NCBI RefSeq assembly: GCF_000877395.1
Contig: NZ_JYFE01000006.1
Span: 1-41,048, forward strand
Length of the DNA: 41,048 bases
Direction of reading: 5' to 3'
Source of the DNA: Jannaschia aquimarina
GTDB lineage: Bacteria > Pseudomonadota > Alphaproteobacteria > Rhodobacterales > Rhodobacteraceae
Position numbers and translations under genes: made by a program. Positions 32,604 to 38,834 of the stretch are shown one piece after another. The first letter of the stretch is position 1; every line of letters begins with the position of its first letter. A model generated the notes under the pieces. It was given only the letters and a program-made list of their open reading frames with translations. It made no database searches and was not told where the DNA came from.

Positions 32604-34616
32604 GTGCCGCCACCGCAAACCAGCCAAGCCGTCCCGCTAGACGCTTATGCCGTCCCGCCCCCGCAGCCGGCGGCGCCGGAACCGTCGGGCCGCGGCCGGG
32701 TCGTCCGGTTTCCGGACCGGGTTCGTGTCCCAAGCACTGCGCCACTCTTCCAAAGGGCCAAGCGCATCAGGCGCAGGCTTCGCCTTGGCGACCTGCTGCT
32801 CGATGCCGGTCACATAGATCAGGCGGCACTGACGCGCGCTCTCATGCTTGCGCGGGAACAGGGCGCGCGATTGGGCGAGATCCTTCGCTCGGAGGGGATG
32901 GTCGAGGGACGCGATCTGGATCGCGCGCTGGCCAGACAGGCCGGTCTCGGCCATATCGACCGCCTCCCGCCGCCCGATGCCGCCTCGCTTGCCGTCGCCA
33001 GAAAGCTGCCGCTCGAAATCGCCCTTCGACATCGCGCGGTGCCGATCCGATCGGCGGCCTGCACCCCGGTCATTGCGACCCCCTTTCCAGAGCGCGCGCA
33101 GATCCTGCGCACGGAGCTTCCGCGCGATCTGTCCGATGCACCGATCGTCGCTGCTTCGGCACAGCTGGTCGATGCCCGGATCAGCGAAGCGCACGGGGCC
33201 GCGCTGGCACGGCAAGCCGAATGCCGTGCGCCGAGGCGCGAAAGCTGCCGGGACTGGCGCGGGCAATCCGTCGGTATCTGGATCTCCGCCGCTCTCATCG
33301 CCCTCCTGTCCTGTGCGTTGACTTGGCCGCGCGCAACGCTGGCCGCGCTCATGGGTGTCGCCCTTCTGGCGATGCTCGGCAATCTTGGGCTTCGCGCCGC
33401 GGCGATCAGAGCTTTGCGTTCCGGGCGGCATCCCGGTTTTCGATCCGTCCGGTCGGACCGTTTGCCGGATGAGCGACTGCCGAGGATTTCCATCCTGATC
33501 CCCCTGCACGACGAGCCAGAAATCGCCCCCGCCCTGATCCGGCGGATGGAGCGGCTCGACTATCCCCGCAGCCGCCTTGAGATCCTCCTCGTCGTGGAAG
33601 AGAACGACGAGGCGACCCGCACGGCGCTCGCGGATGCCACGCTTCCGGCATGGATGAGGGTGATCCCGGTCCCGGAGGGTCAGCCGCACACCAAGCCGCG
33701 TGCCATGAACTATGCCCTGAACTTTGCCACCGGCGACGTGATCGGGGTCTACGATGCGGAGGACGCGCCAAGCACGGACCAGTTGAGAAAGGTCGCGACC
33801 CGCTTCGTGCATGGCGGCGAGCGGCTGGCCTGCCTCCAGGGCCGCCTCGACTACTACAACGCGACGCGCAACTGGATGGCACGCGGTTTCACCATCGAAT
33901 ATGCCGCCTGGTTCCGACTGCTCCTTCCGGGGATTGCCCGGATGGGCCTGGTTGTCCCCCTTGGCGGAACCACCGTCTTCTTCCGCCGGAACGCCCTCGA
34001 AGAAGTCGGCGCCTGGGATGCCCACAACGTCACAGAAGACGCAGATCTCGGCGTGCGCCTGACGCGGCGCGGCTGGCGGACCGAGGTGATCGACGTGACA
34101 ACGCTGGAGGAGGCGAATGCCGCCCCCCTGCCCTGGATCAATCAGCGCTCCCGCTGGATGAAGGGGTATCTCATGACCTGGGCCGTCCATTCCGCCCGCC
34201 CCCTCCATCTCTGGAGGGATCTCGGCCCACGGCGTTTCTGGTTCTTCCACCTCCACTTCCTGTCCGCCGTGCTGAACGCCCTTCTGATGCCGTTGGCCTG
34301 GACCTTGGTCGTCATCCCCTTCGGCCTGCCGCATCCGGCCGTCGACGGCATGCCGGTCTGGGTGTCCTATGGCCTGGGCGTGGGGCTTCCTCTGCTGACG
34401 GTCGCGAATTGGGGGATGGCGGCCTATGCCTGCCGTGCGCCCCATCATCGCCATCTCAGACGGTCCATCCCGCTCCTTGAACCCTATTTCGCACTAGCCT
34501 CTCTGGCCGTCCTGAAGGCCGTGGCCGAACTGGTTCTGAAGCCGTTTCACTGGGACAAGACGGCGCACGGGGTGTTCGGTGGCGCGGGGCTGGACGAGGC
34601 GGCCCCGGAGCGGTAG
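32604..34616 (+). CDS. Family 2 glycosyltransferase with N-terminal c-di-GMP-type MshEN domain
   Basis: A 670-residue membrane enzyme started by GTG. Residues 60-112 contain two 24-residue MshEN motifs: RLGDLLLDAGHIDQAALTRA... and RLGEILRSEGMVEGRDLDRA..., separated by exactly five residues, the layout of c-di-GMP-binding MshEN domains. Then come two helices (about 224-265) and a GT2 domain: ISILIPLHDEP, EENDEAT, DAED (384-387), TED (478-480) and QRSRW (514-518), as in processive beta-glycan synthases, with C-terminal helices. The order recalls E. coli NfrB, in which MshEN lies at the other end. Predicted product: a surface polysaccharide made on a c-di-GMP signal. The nearest upstream signal is the CtrA box. 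Confidence 0.85.
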   Translation: MPPPQTSQAVPLDAYAVPPPQPAAPEPSGRGRVVRFPDRVRVPSTAPLFQRAKRIRRRLRLGDLLLDAGHIDQAALTRALMLAREQGARLGEILRSEGMVEGRDLDRALARQAGLGHIDRLPPPDAASLAVARKLPLEIALRHRAVPIRSAACTPVIATPFPERAQILRTELPRDLSDAPIVAASAQLVDARISEAHGAALARQAECRAPRRESCRDWRGQSVGIWISAALIALLSCALTWPRATLAALMGVALLAMLGNLGLRAAAIRALRSGRHPGFRSVRSDRLPDERLPRISILIPLHDEPEIAPALIRRMERLDYPRSRLEILLVVEENDEATRTALADATLPAWMRVIPVPEGQPHTKPRAMNYALNFATGDVIGVYDAEDAPSTDQLRKVATRFVHGGERLACLQGRLDYYNATRNWMARGFTIEYAAWFRLLLPGIARMGLVVPLGGTTVFFRRNALEEVGAWDAHNVTEDADLGVRLTRRGWRTEVIDVTTLEEANAAPLPWINQRSRWMKGYLMTWAVHSARPLHLWRDLGPRRFWFFHLHFLSAVLNALLMPLAWTLVVIPFGLPHPAVDGMPVWVSYGLGVGLPLLTVANWGMAAYACRAPHHRHLRRSIPLLEPYFALASLAVLKAVAELVLKPFHWDKTAHGVFGGAGLDEAAPER

Positions 34617-34679: not shown

Positions 34680-35282
34680 ATGAAATCTCTCGCCTTTCCG
34701 GTGGTCTGCATGGCCGCTATCGTCGTGGCTTCGAACGTGGGGGTGCAGTTCCTGCTCGCCGACGGGTACTTGACATGGGGGGCGTTCTGCTACCCGCTCG
34801 CCTTTCTGGTCACCGACGTGACCAACCGGCTCTACGGGCCGGAGAAGGCGCGGAAGGTGGTGCTCTTCGGGTTCGCGACGGGGCTGGCCTGCTCTCTGGT
34901 CGGCACGCAGATCATGGGCGAGTTCGGGCCGCTGGTGACGTGGCGCATCGCGGTCGCTTCGGGGCTGGCGTTCCTGGTCGCGCAGCTCACGGATGTCGCT
35001 GTCTTCAGGGCCTTTTCAGAGCGGCCCTGGTGGAAGGCGCCGCTCACCTCGACGCTGGTGGGCTCCACCCTCGACACGGCGCTCTTCTTCACCATCGCCT
35101 TCGCGGGTTTCCTCGCGATTCCAGCGGCTTGGGGCGACGTCTCCTGGGCGCAGGAGGCGACGGCCGTGGGCCCGCTCTGGGTCGGGATGGCGCTGGCGGA
35201 CTGGGCGGTGAAGCTGTCGGTGGCGCTGGCGGCGCTGGTGCCGTTCCGCCTCATCACGCGACGGGCACAAGCTGTGGTGTGA
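34680..35282 (+). CDS. yhhQ: VUT/YhhQ-family queuosine-precursor transporter
   Basis: A 200-residue polytopic membrane protein with about six helices. YLTWGAFCYPLAFLVTDVTNRLYGPEKARKVV is the family signature (the DxxNRxYG motif), followed by the conserved LVAQLTDVAVF helix. YhhQ imports 7-cyano- or 7-aminomethyl-7-deazaguanine for tRNA queuosine modification. ATG 34680 is preferred over the in-frame ATG at 34632 because the longer start would overlap the hairpin and the first helix begins at SLAFPVVC. No queuosine synthesis gene is nearby. Confidence 0.88.
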   Translation: MKSLAFPVVCMAAIVVASNVGVQFLLADGYLTWGAFCYPLAFLVTDVTNRLYGPEKARKVVLFGFATGLACSLVGTQIMGEFGPLVTWRIAVASGLAFLVAQLTDVAVFRAFSERPWWKAPLTSTLVGSTLDTALFFTIAFAGFLAIPAAWGDVSWAQEATAVGPLWVGMALADWAVKLSVALAALVPFRLITRRAQAVV

Positions 35283-35337
35283 TTTGGGCTTGACGGATAC
35301 CGGATGTGTGCCAACCTCCCCCCTATCGGCAACCCAC

Positions 35338-35355
35338 AGAAAGGAGGTGATCCAG
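35338..35355 (+). promoter_or_regulatory. 18-nt perfect complement of the 16S rRNA 3' end (extended Shine-Dalgarno)
   Basis: AGAAAGGAGGTGATCCAG is the exact reverse complement of the conserved alphaproteobacterial 16S 3' tail CTGGATCACCTCCTTTCT. A normal Shine-Dalgarno uses 4-8 of these bases. The core GGAGG (35343-35347) stands 7 nt before a GTG at 35355. Whether it acts as an initiation signal or as a ribosome-binding decoy cannot be told from the sequence. Confidence 0.7.
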
Positions 35356-35411
35356 TGTCTAGAAAGGTATTGGAGAATGGCGTCGGGACAACTGCGGAGG
35401 TGCGTGCGTAG
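35355..35411 (+). CDS. GTG-started 18-residue peptide after the extended Shine-Dalgarno
   Basis: The frame reads MSRKVLENGVGTTAEVRA, then TAG. Spacing from GGAGG is 7 nt, ideal for initiation at GTG. Codons include AGA, GTA and TTG, rare in the surrounding high-GC genes, which argues either for stalling on purpose or for RNA-level rather than protein-level selection. No homologue is known to me. It is not certain that the peptide exists. Confidence 0.38.
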   Translation: MSRKVLENGVGTTAEVRA

Positions 35412-35479
35412 GGCAGCCCTTGCGCTCTCACAGACGTAGGTGAGGTCACTCTAACCGACCCCGCCTCCTGGACTTTCGG

Positions 35480-35515
35480 AAGGCCGCTTCTCGCCGAGGA
35501 GCGGCCTTCTTCTTG
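35480..35515 (+). terminator. Rho-independent terminator of the small transcription unit
   Basis: AAGGCCGCT (35480-35488), an 11-nt loop with an inner CTC/GAG pair, AGCGGCCTT (35500-35508), then CTTCTTG. A 9-bp perfect stem followed by a U-rich stretch is the best classical terminator in the window, and supports a transcribed unit just upstream. Confidence 0.75.
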
Positions 35516-35672: not shown

Positions 35673-35716
35673 CGTTCGGACGGAAGGTCGCCCCCCGACA
35701 CGCGATGGAGGGGTCG

Positions 35717-36133
35717 ATGGCGACGACGGATGTGAAGGGACGCAAGCGCGAATGGCTCAGCGAACTGATGACGCTGATGCGTCAGTTCGAATGGGACATG
35801 ATGTATCAGGTCACGACGCGCGGCCGCATCCCCGGGGAATGGACGACGATCTGGAAGGAGCGGTCCTGCAAACGCACGCGGGTGACGCTGCGTGTGGATG
35901 ACGACGTGCTGCGCTTCTTCAAGGTCATGGGAGCGGGCCACGGGCCGCGCATGAACGCCGTGCTGCGGGCTTTCATGCTGAGCAAGCTGTCGGGGATGAT
36001 CCAGGACGAGATCCTGCCCGAGACCTACCGGGAAGACTGGATGGGCAAACCCCGCCCCACCTACCGCTCCGACCTGGCCCAGGCCTGGCAATTGATGGGC
36101 AAGGACCCGGACAAGGAGATCAAGGGGTTGTGA
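35717..36133 (+). CDS. BrnA-like ribbon-helix-helix DNA-binding protein
   Basis: A 138-residue protein. The centre (about 54-95), CKRTRVTLRVDDDVLRFFKVMG followed by MNAVLRAFMLSKLSG, matches the BrnA antitoxin/CopG-type ribbon-helix-helix pattern (beta strand VTLRV, then helices). Residues 1-50 form an extra helical segment (REWLSELMTLMRQFEWDMMYQ). BrnA normally pairs with the toxin BrnT, but no BrnT-like gene lies next to it. It may be a solitary regulator. ATG 35717 has GGAGG 5 nt ahead; ATG 35705 is an alternative. The 11-bp GTGCAC array upstream is a plausible own operator. Confidence 0.72.
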   Translation: MATTDVKGRKREWLSELMTLMRQFEWDMMYQVTTRGRIPGEWTTIWKERSCKRTRVTLRVDDDVLRFFKVMGAGHGPRMNAVLRAFMLSKLSGMIQDEILPETYREDWMGKPRPTYRSDLAQAWQLMGKDPDKEIKGL

Positions 36134-36263: not shown

Positions 36264-37484
36264 TAAGCTAACCGTCTGTGGAGCAGGCGGAAGCCTATAG
36301 TCCCACTTCGCATAGCGAAAGCAGATCTAACCTCCTACTGGACTTCCCTTCACTTCCTACCGGGCGGAGTTCTTCGCTTCCAGAAGATAAGCGTTGAAAT
36401 ACTGTCTAGCCTGAGGCGTAAGCATAGTTCGAAATTTTTTATCATCATGGTAAAAGAGGCAATGCCTCATAATCGTAAAGGGCTTCATGTTCACATGTGC
36501 CTTGGTTAGACGTTCCTCAGCATAACGTTTAACAAGAGAGATTGACGTTCGAAGATAGTAGTTGAATTTCCCTCTTGTCGTTTCGGGCCGCATCTGCAGT
36601 ATCTCCTCGACGAAATCGTCCGCGGCGTCTGGCGGAAACTCATATCCTTCAAAAAAATGATTCGCTATCCGAAGAAATGAAAACGCATCCAAAATCGGAG
36701 CCGGCTTTCCCTTTTCTCCAGACTCCCCTGATCCTTCTTCCAACTTCGTTTCCGCATTCAGCCCTTCTGTTTCCGAGATGTCAACCTCGTAGTCCTCTGC
36801 GCGTTCTTCATATTCGCCTGTAAGGTCTCGAATGGCAGAGAACTCTCTATCTGCAATTTCAAAGAGGGCGGCTAACGCATTAACTCTTCTCTTCAAGTCA
36901 TTTGGAATAGACTTCTTATACTTTAGCTTATGGTCAAGAACACTCCACGCGTCTTGAATAAGAGTACGTATCTGAACTTCGAACCGCAATCCCTTATATC
37001 GATAATATTCTGGAAACTTCGCCCGCTCCTCAGAAATACATAGATCCATGTGTAGACCTTTATACCCAAAACGGCCTTCGTCTGCGACAAGCTCAGCGGT
37101 CTTATCAGTTGTTTCCAAGACAAAGAAATTCTGATCTATTAAATTCTGGACCTTCGCAATATCTTCTTCATATTGGCATGTAATTCTTAGGCCGAGAATG
37201 TCGCTTACGTGATTCTTTATTGAATAGCCCTTCTTCTCTTTTTCCAATTTACCCCGATAGTTTCTTATGAACTTCCCAACACATTCGTCTCGCACCTTTA
37301 GCCTATATTCGATTTTCTCGATACCCAGTCGACTATCAGAGAGGGCGAGAGATTCTAGAAGTGAGTGCATTGATCGCAGTGCGTCGTAGTGATACTGATA
37401 ATTTTCGTCATAGAATTTTTTAAACTCTTCCAGTTCATGCGAAAAGTCTAATGAAGCCAAAGTCTCCTCCTTCATTGTAAGCTA
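36264..37484. repeat. 7-bp direct repeat flanking the A+T-rich RelA/SpoT gene
   Basis: TAAGCTA occurs at 36264-36270 and again at 37478-37484, just outside the two ends of the composition break. The first copy follows the BrnA-type remnant, the second lies between the start of the RelA/SpoT gene and the pncB stop. It could be a target-site duplication or attachment-site remnant, but seven bases may match by chance. No transposase or integrase is present. Confidence 0.3.
36357..37475 (-). CDS. RelA/SpoT-domain nucleotide pyrophosphotransferase, foreign composition
   Basis: A 372-residue protein with one RelA/SpoT synthetase domain in the first half: RLKVRDECVGKF, D92 in SDILGLRI (metal-binding Asp), FGYKGLH (136-142; Tyr stacks on guanine), E166 in FEVQIRT and the AWSVLDHKLKYK helix. 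These catalytic positions look intact. No HD hydrolase, TGS or ACT domain is present, so it is not the housekeeping Rel. A second half of about 190 residues (DAFSFLRIANHFFEG, KFNYYLRTSISLVKRYAEERL) is unknown. Such stand-alone enzymes make (p)ppGpp or (p)ppApp, or modify tRNA ends as toxSAS toxins, several acting in phage defence. It is visibly A+T-rich against its neighbours. No antitoxin gene is recognised. Confidence 0.8.
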   Translation of the reverse strand: MKEETLASLDFSHELEEFKKFYDENYQYHYDALRSMHSLLESLALSDSRLGIEKIEYRLKVRDECVGKFIRNYRGKLEKEKKGYSIKNHVSDILGLRITCQYEEDIAKVQNLIDQNFFVLETTDKTAELVADEGRFGYKGLHMDLCISEERAKFPEYYRYKGLRFEVQIRTLIQDAWSVLDHKLKYKKSIPNDLKRRVNALAALFEIADREFSAIRDLTGEYEERAEDYEVDISETEGLNAETKLEEGSGESGEKGKPAPILDAFSFLRIANHFFEGYEFPPDAADDFVEEILQMRPETTRGKFNYYLRTSISLVKRYAEERLTKAHVNMKPFTIMRHCLFYHDDKKFRTMLTPQARQYFNAYLLEAKNSAR

Positions 37485-37487
37485 CTC

Positions 37488-38780
37488 TTAAACCACCACC
37501 TCTTCCGCCACCTGCTCCCCCACCCCGAAGACCCGCTTGTAGCGCTCCACTTCCGCCTCCGGTCCCATCGCCTTGCGGGGGTTATCGCTCAGCTTCACGG
37601 TCGGCCGCCCGTCCGCCGCCACTGCCTTGCAGACCAGCGAGAACGGGGCGAGGCGGTCTTCGGGGACGAGGCCCCGGAAGTCGTTCGTCAGGAGCGTCCC
37701 CCAGCCGAAGGACACGCGTACGCGGCCCTGGAAGCGGGCGTGGAGGTGCTCGATCTTCTCGACGTCGAGCCCGTCGGAGAAGATGACGAGCTTCCCGGTC
37801 GGGTCCTCCCCCCGCTCCCGCCACCAGCGGATGGCGGTCTCGGCCCCCTCCTCCGGGTCGCCGGAATCCACCCGGATCCCCGTCCACCCCGCCAGCCAGT
37901 CGGGCGCGCGATCGAGGAACCCCTTCGTCCCGTACGTGTCGGGCAGGATGATGCGCAGGTTGCCCGAATGCTCCTCGTGCCAATCGGCGAGCACGTCGTA
38001 GGGGGCGGCGGCCAGCGCCTCGTCGCTGCGGGCGAGCGCGGAATAGACCATGGGCAGTTCGTGGGCGTTGGTGCCGATGGCCTCCAGGTCGCGGTTCTTG
38101 GCGATCAGGCAGTTGGACGTGCCCGTGAAGCTGTCGCCCAGCCCCTCGCGCATGGCCTGCACGCACCAGTCCTGCCACAGGAAGGAATGCCGCCGGCGGG
38201 TGCCGAAATCCGCGATGCGCAGGTCGGAGAGGTCGCGCAGGCGCTGGATCTTCTCCCAGACGCGGGTCATGGCGCGGGCGTAGAGGACCTGAAGCTCGAA
38301 CCGCGCGAGATCGTGGAGCACGGCGCGGGAGCGGAGTTCCATGATGATGGCGAGCGCCGGGATCTCCCAGAGCATGACCTGGGGCCAGGGGCCCTCGAAG
38401 GTGAGCTCGTATTGGTCGCCCACCCGCTCCAGGTGATAGGGCGGCAGGCGGAGCTGCTCGAACCAGTCCATGAAGGCGGGCGTGAACATCTGGCGCTTGC
38501 CGTAGAAGGTGTTGCCGCGCATCCAGGTGGATTCGCCCCGGGTCAGCGACAGGGTGCGGACATGGTCGAGCTGCTCGCGCAGTTCGCCCTCGTCGATCAG
38601 GTCGGCGAGGGGGACGCGGGTGGTGCGGTTGATCAGGCTGAAGGTGACGTCGGTGTCGGGGCGGTTGCGGAAGACCGACTGGCACATCAGCAGCTTGTAG
38701 AAATCGGTGTCGATCAGCGAGCGGACGATCGGGTCGATCTTCCACTTGTGGTTCCAGACGCGGGTGGCGATGTCGGTCAT
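37488..38780 (-). CDS. pncB: Nicotinate phosphoribosyltransferase
   Basis: A 430-residue PncB making nicotinate mononucleotide in NAD salvage. Seen are the [12 protein letters not shown] start, [13 protein letters not shown] (the phospho-histidine region), [58 protein letters not shown] and [12 protein letters not shown], the phosphoribose-binding end. ATG 38780 has GGAGG 7 nt ahead; the in-frame ATG at 38810 was rejected for lack of it. Its stop is 12 nt before the start of the RelA/SpoT gene, so the latter reads through from pncB or from its own hidden promoter. Confidence 0.95.
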
Positions 38781-38834
38781 GGGCGTCCTCCGTCGCGGGA
38801 GGATGCGCATGGGGTGCCGGGCCTGTCCAGACGC

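Follow-up and report, generated by a model that had tools for sequence, protein, structure and literature searches.

Why does a predicted RNA of Jannaschia aquimarina carry an 18-nt complement to the 3' end of 16S rRNA directly before a frame of only 18 codons, and what might such an RNA do? We addressed this in a window of 41,048 nt, the whole stretch of DNA that was analysed. A sequence-only reading of the window had proposed a dedicated regulatory RNA or leader peptide that captures or senses 30S subunits; the observation was confirmed, and the interpretation is partly supported. The unit and its upstream neighbour are laid out as follows.

34680-35282, + strand: yhhQ/VUT_1, upstream neighbour outside the unit (Pfam PF02592, E 2e-28)
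35290-35295, + strand: TTGACG, a -35-like sequence and probable promoter, with TTGAC 48-50 nt ahead of the SD block in same-genus loci
35338-35355, + strand: extended Shine-Dalgarno (SD) AGAAAGGAGGTGATCCAG, the 18-nt complement of the 16S tail
35355-35411, + strand: short ORF VSRKVLENGVGTTAEVRA of 18 codons, rreR-type, with GTG start at 35355-35357 and TAG stop at 35409-35411
35464-35469, + strand: CCTCCT box 3' of the short ORF, containing part of the putative masking box CGCCTCC
about 35479-35514, + strand: intrinsic terminator, a hairpin of -25.2 kcal/mol followed by a T-rich tail (row L064)

The 18-mer is the single match in the window when three mismatches are allowed (0.02 expected) and has one exact match in the 4.1-Mb assembly. 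Nine other AGGAGGTGATC sites of the assembly were inspected and none had a 17-nt complement (0/9). The 16S tail was taken from a relative of the same class, G037, because the assembly of J. aquimarina itself gave no match to a 16S gene; the G037 tail (...CTGGATCACCTCCTTTCTAAGG) is complementary to the 18-mer over the full 18 bases. The 16S-end pattern had no match in seven other genomes searched, and the complement is therefore judged against G037 and not against the genus itself. The predicted duplex of SD and 16S tail is worth -32.2 kcal/mol. The first G of the GTG is the final base of the 18-mer and lies 7 nt past GGAGG.

The TTGAC sequence was present 48-50 nt 5' of the SD block in 18/18 same-genus loci with the exact SD. 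No clear -10 was found for the putative promoter at 35290; the -10 is weak. Of the 152 loci numbered L036 onward, 133 had a terminator-like hairpin, a count that includes repeated loci and some hairpins that are weak or lie far away, and the strong terminator of the sequence-only reading was borne out by the hairpin and tail listed above. The positions of the -35-like site and the terminator predict a transcript of about 170-190 nt.

Conservation, the check suggested for the original proposal, reaches across the class instead of stopping at close strains, although the complement is substituted in 2/20 congeners and shorter in some distant relatives. The element was present in 19/19 same-genus genomes searched. 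When loci were found by DNA similarity, GAAAGGAGGTGATCCAG was kept in 18/20 same-genus genomes, the own genome included; the two that deviate do so at GATCC (GACCC in L017, GCTCT in L015), and the leading A of the 18-mer is not conserved. A search of 40 genomes gave a match at E <= 0.001 in 25, the own genome included, of which the five outside the genus were short matches. The exact string AAAGGAGGTGATCCARTGTC was found in 29/385 alphaproteobacterial genomes; across the genome collection at least 118 stretches carry it, with record titles for 80 of the 118 listed. An ORF of 14-26 codons was present in 113 of these 118 listed stretches and in 27/29 loci from the 385-genome set. Two of the stretches, L121 and L153, lacked the layout of the element; among MAGs titled gammaproteobacteria the string was found in L121 (SAR92) and L144, the layout in L144 only. 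The SD block AAAGGAGGTGATCCAATGTC also stands before Azospirillum-type genes of 56-59 codons with a signal-peptide-like start, judged by eye (L043, L114, L142 and L154), and the long SD thus serves another gene as well.

Among loci fetched by the SD string, conservation of the SD holds by construction. The unbiased sample consists of 20 of the 33 genomes found through the Rfam model RF01867 (CC2171) instead of the string. At least 16 of the 17 bases were kept in 9 of these 20 and a run of at least 14 in 16, and an ATG or GTG stood at the expected place in 19/20, with ORFs of 14-27 codons. Because only 6 of the 20 keep all 17 bases, and L235 has a complement of just 11 with no RTG at the expected place, the SD block is strongly conserved but not invariant; invariance is not borne out in relatives found without the string.

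A small mRNA with such a Shine-Dalgarno is already known in kind. The gene rreR reportedly corresponds to rreB of Bradyrhizobium, whose small mRNA binds 30S subunits and has a Shine-Dalgarno of 17 nt, and rreB is said to co-sediment with 30S. Its translation is reportedly weak, hindered by the long SD and the GTG, and changing the start codon to a stop is said to have given a more stable RNA. Members are reportedly recognized by a complement of 16 nt or more to the 3' end of 16S ahead of a short ORF; an ORF of 18 amino acids is said to be conserved in the Rhodobacter/Roseobacter lineage, and the rreB transcript to be about 165 nt long.

The element shares with rreB and rreR a 17-nt extended SD, a GTG start and the form of a short stand-alone gene, and its complement to the tail of the class relative is 18 nt long. 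Its 18 codons are those of rreR in the Rhodobacter/Roseobacter lineage, whereas the ORF of the Bradyrhizobiaceae has 14; exactly 18 codons were found in each of the 63 fetched loci that have yhhQ upstream, a count in which a genome may appear more than once. No feature that excludes membership was found. Table 1 of PMC7217052 lists a 14-aa protein of B. japonicum and an 18-aa protein of Dinoroseobacter shibae, both as unstructured, and the masses in that table agree with the 14- and 18-codon ORFs here, the second taken from the Dinoroseobacter MAG L083, in a comparison by mass only. Because of this agreement, alongside what Hahn et al. 2017 (RNA Biol 14:1353) reportedly describe, the element is filed as rreR, which it fits. 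The sequence-only reading knew of no described family of this kind; this is not supported, since the element fits rreR/rreB and also has a diverged relative in Rfam. The analysis of helices and stop codon given below may be additional to Hahn et al. 2017.

That relative is RF01867 (CC2171), which matched the element with 45.1 bits (E 1.6e-8 in a 311-nt search) over the full-length model (1-159), below the gathering cut-off of 75 bits. The two share the SD block, a 5'-3' closing stem (CAUUGUC:GACAAUG in CC2171, GAAAG:CTTTC in the element) and a terminator after that stem, and the stem covaries class-wide. CC2171 is filed by Rfam as an sRNA, its Rfam output stating no ORF, whereas the element has one of 18 codons. 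Judged from sequence, the element is a diverged relative of RF01867 and is not filed as a member. On the element, RF01867 scored at or above the cut-off in 5/20 loci tested; in G384 a match below the cut-off (E 1.4e-7) coincides with a 14-codon CHLAGIAR ORF. In a 200-genome sample of the phylum 33 genomes matched, 7 of them over the cut-off and all alphaproteobacteria (33/51 of that class and 0/149 others, classes being taken from the order of listing). Among 14 named controls Caulobacter vibrioides alone gave a match. Three genomes (G035, G267 and G301) had two matches each, the second ones weak (E 1.6e-5, 8.2e-4 and 4.9e-5), and the family may thus not always be single-copy.

A link between rreB/rreR and CC2171 was not found in those parts of the literature reached by full-text search, a scope that did not extend to the text of Hahn et al. 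2017. The portions of PMC5082802, PMC10117765, PMC9373788 and PMC4842269 that the search returned hold no description of the element. A full-text search with the SD string gave, among the matches listed, primer or genome papers by title, and an anti-SD query gave no matching paper. Queries on rreB/rreR brought up papers that cite Hahn et al. 2017 among unrelated ones. Two other systems invite comparison. In the extracts of PMC10117765, rnTrpL/peTrpL of Sinorhizobium is, like the element, a small RNA with an ORF (14 codons in rnTrpL), but it is leaderless and a trp attenuator, whereas the SD of the element is very long and no particular gene consistently follows the unit. The extended-SD mRNAs of Staphylococcus aureus, as excerpted from PMC13009471, also pair past the core SD; however, aur, rarA and proP are ordinary mRNAs and the element is a dedicated tiny one.

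The short ORF keeps its length and its stop. Loci with 18 codons include records titled Ruegeria, Dinoroseobacter and Defluviimonas, and also the Roseobacter record L137. Among same-family genomes found through RF01867 and not through the SD string, 18 codons were found in 4/5, with stops TAG, TAA, TGA and TAG. The codon-position analysis used loci with exact SD and an 18-codon ORF (n = 58), of which 52 were aligned; the six outside the alignment are the divergent L124 and L164 and the near-duplicates L008, L116, L143 and L156. In the 52 aligned sequences the stop codon was TAG in 23, TGA in 18, TAA in 11 and TGG in none, with 13 and 14 parsimony changes at the two purine positions. Neutral simulations on the tree lacked TGG in 0-1.6% of runs, and the stop codon thus appears to be under selection to remain a stop. 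Stops were present in the other two frames in 18/52 and 23/52 sequences and in frame 0 in 0/52, the rows having been chosen for an 18-codon ORF.

The peptide behaves otherwise. Over Rhodobacterales-type rows, variation was equal at the three codon positions (0.334/0.343/0.336), which argues against an ordinary protein constraint on the peptide and suggests that translation and its end point, rather than the peptide, are selected. Peptides are also group-specific across relatives in the Alphaproteobacteria: VSRxxLERGVGT.. in Rhodobacterales records, VSHCH..TW.. in Bosea, Methylobacterium, Microvirga and others, ..KRCHLAGIAR in Bradyrhizobium, and MSSE.. in further groups. The peptide is probably not the functional product. 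We consider it improbable that this is an ordinary very small protein gene in which the long SD merely boosts translation of a functional peptide. Such a gene would explain the strong SD, the selected stop, the fixed length and the slight third-position excess seen within the genus (0.189/0.206/0.257), but not peptides that vary between groups or the lack of that excess over Rhodobacterales-type rows. In addition, the fitting 14- and 18-aa peptides are listed as unstructured in Table 1 of PMC7217052, and several conserved codons fall in RNA helices, which are the following.

35362-35366, + strand: P1 5' strand GAAAG in codons 3-4, pairing with CTTTC
35473-35477, + strand: P1 3' strand CTTTC, the box before the terminator
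35382-35386, + strand: P3 5' strand GTCGG in codons 10-11, pairing with CCGAC
35455-35459, + strand: P3 3' strand CCGAC, a five-pair helix with GTCGG
35408-35423, + strand: P4, hairpin GTAGGG-CAGC-CCTTGC with the stop codon inside
35462-35468, + strand: CGCCTCC box (P0), which can pair with SD GGAGGTG at 35343-35349

Helix P1 was assessed in 132 sequences, after removal of repeats, of loci without a clear in-range terminator and of Azospirillum-type 56-59-codon genes. In a permutation test with 58 unique 5' strands, cognate pairing scored -6.52 against -4.53 (sd 0.26), and 0/1000 permutations were as good. Within the 20 Rhodobacterales-type strands the same test was negative (700/1000 permutations equal or better). 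At the first base of codon 4, A was paired with T in 28/28 and G with C in 24/24 of 52 related sequences, independent changes being uncounted. Five pairs of P3 were present in 46/53 sequences and four in 5, with no recognisable box in 2; the compensatory forms ATCGG:CCGAT and AACGG:CCGTT were seen, in a script that picks the best-pairing register and so is biased toward pairing. P4 had 5-7 bp in 38/53 sequences and failed or was short in 15/53.

The possible masking CCTCCT had been placed correctly, and predicted folds agree with its role: the SD is masked by P0 in the MFE of the window RNA and likewise in 47/52 Rhodobacterales-type MFEs. The P0 mean z was -2.4 in this type and near 0 in other large groups. 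Since there is little variation in the SD strand of P0, P0 comes without a covariation test. With the SD forced open, P1 was predicted in 44/52 and P3 in 49/52, the opening costing 10.2 kcal/mol on average; because P0 and P1 cross, they would be alternatives (or form a pseudoknot). The fold of the window RNA had z -3.35 against 200 shuffles, much of which the terminator may supply.

The same box might instead belong to a trans-acting sRNA, its CCTCC pairing with the SDs of other mRNAs once translation of the short ORF has freed it. CTCC is indeed present in 49/50 Rhodobacterales-type rows and is paired with the RNA's own SD in predicted folds. We hold this explanation to be quite unlikely, the box being seldom found in the other large groups (4/38 VSH rows, 2/17 MSS and 0/11 CHLAGIAR). 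General masking of the SD was not seen outside the Rhodobacterales type, the exceptions being three Devosia-like rows (VSY/MSY) and two MSK rows, of which one carries the box. The masking box thus seems largely limited to Rhodobacterales-type elements, and cannot account for the long SD kept elsewhere.

The genes around the element were considered next to the possibility of a leader. The upstream gene yhhQ/VUT_1, presumably a queuosine-precursor transporter, was found in 52/54 judgeable Rhodobacterales-type loci. An attenuator or leader peptide that controls arfB (ribosome rescue) by switching at the terminator would suit the 43/56 Rhodobacterales-type loci in which arfB lies <400 nt downstream with a terminator in between; of the remainder, 4 had arfB farther away, in 8 it was not found and 1 was not judgeable. 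This explanation has very little probability. In the four farther cases arfB is 742-1137 nt from the element, and the arfB-like gene, a third RF-1 match, was remote or on another contig in 4/6 genomes checked (own, G005, G008 and G014) though the element stays beside yhhQ. In J. aquimarina that third, weaker match, which we take to be arfB, lies at G000:C3:35121-35498 and the element on C6, so a cis leader of arfB was rejected for this genome, the regulated gene not being directly downstream. In groups other than Rhodobacterales, ORF calls from a simple script often show an unrelated, convergently oriented gene as the next one. With neighbours that differ between groups and arfB on another contig here, the element appears to be a stand-alone unit with no fixed downstream gene, and a cis leader peptide is unlikely. 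The dedicated small unit of the sequence-only reading is supported, with a full complement to the 16S tail, a selected short ORF and a box able to mask the SD.

Several observations concern the surroundings. In L099 and L146 (titled Hyphomonadaceae) arfB is 176 and 1022 nt from the element on the opposite strand. An ORF resembling a BrnA-type antitoxin (35705-36133, + strand; PF14384, E 1.1e-9) lies directly 3' of the element, and a MshEN-like stretch, just under the Pfam cut-off, is joined to a glycosyltransferase family 2 domain at 32604-34616 (+ strand). Between the rreR/arfB spot and the NAPRTase gene, which lies at 37488-38810 in the window and was identified by eye from ORF starts in L027, L030, L031, L032 and L034, gene content differs among congeners L027, L028, L030, L031, L032, L034 and L040. 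This region holds a RelA_SpoT-domain protein in the window (36357-37475, - strand), defence-like family matches in L028 (HEC-07, E 1.4e-163), L030 (Fic) and L034 (Schlafen AlbA_2), and a NACHT-like match in L040 just under the Pfam cut-off; it is a probable variable-gene hotspot.

That the match arose by chance, or is what remains of an opposite-strand 16S gene, has negligible probability: the 18-mer is indeed exactly the reverse complement of the end of 16S, but the bases past it do not continue 16S, and conservation of the element in every congener searched, with an ORF and a terminator of its own in those that were aligned, refutes both.

The reading we favour, and think rather probable, is that of a stand-alone rreR mRNA whose SD is either masked by the RNA itself or captured by the 16S tail, and whose decay is coupled to translation. 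In the free RNA the SD would be masked by the CTCC box (P0). A 30S subunit with a free 16S tail would open P0 at a price of about 10 kcal/mol, which the 17-nt duplex, at about -32, would more than repay. Once the SD is bound to the 30S, P1 would re-form on P3. Initiation would be slow, and translation of the 18 codons would break P1, P3 and P4 and expose the RNA to decay, so that RNA levels would track 30S occupancy.

More speculatively, and with considerable doubt, rreB, rreR and CC2171 could form one translated, structured RNA family found across the alphaproteobacteria that reports or buffers free 30S subunits, with the 16S tail acting as a ligand to switch the RNA, and with translation of a throw-away ORF resetting or destroying it. 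Uniting rreB/rreR with Rfam CC2171 would bring together, as one family, what is now filed separately, and the two-state fold is simple to test at the bench. A kind of gene that is spread over much of one bacterial class and carries a near-maximal SD would offer an unusual natural means of probing ribosome availability.
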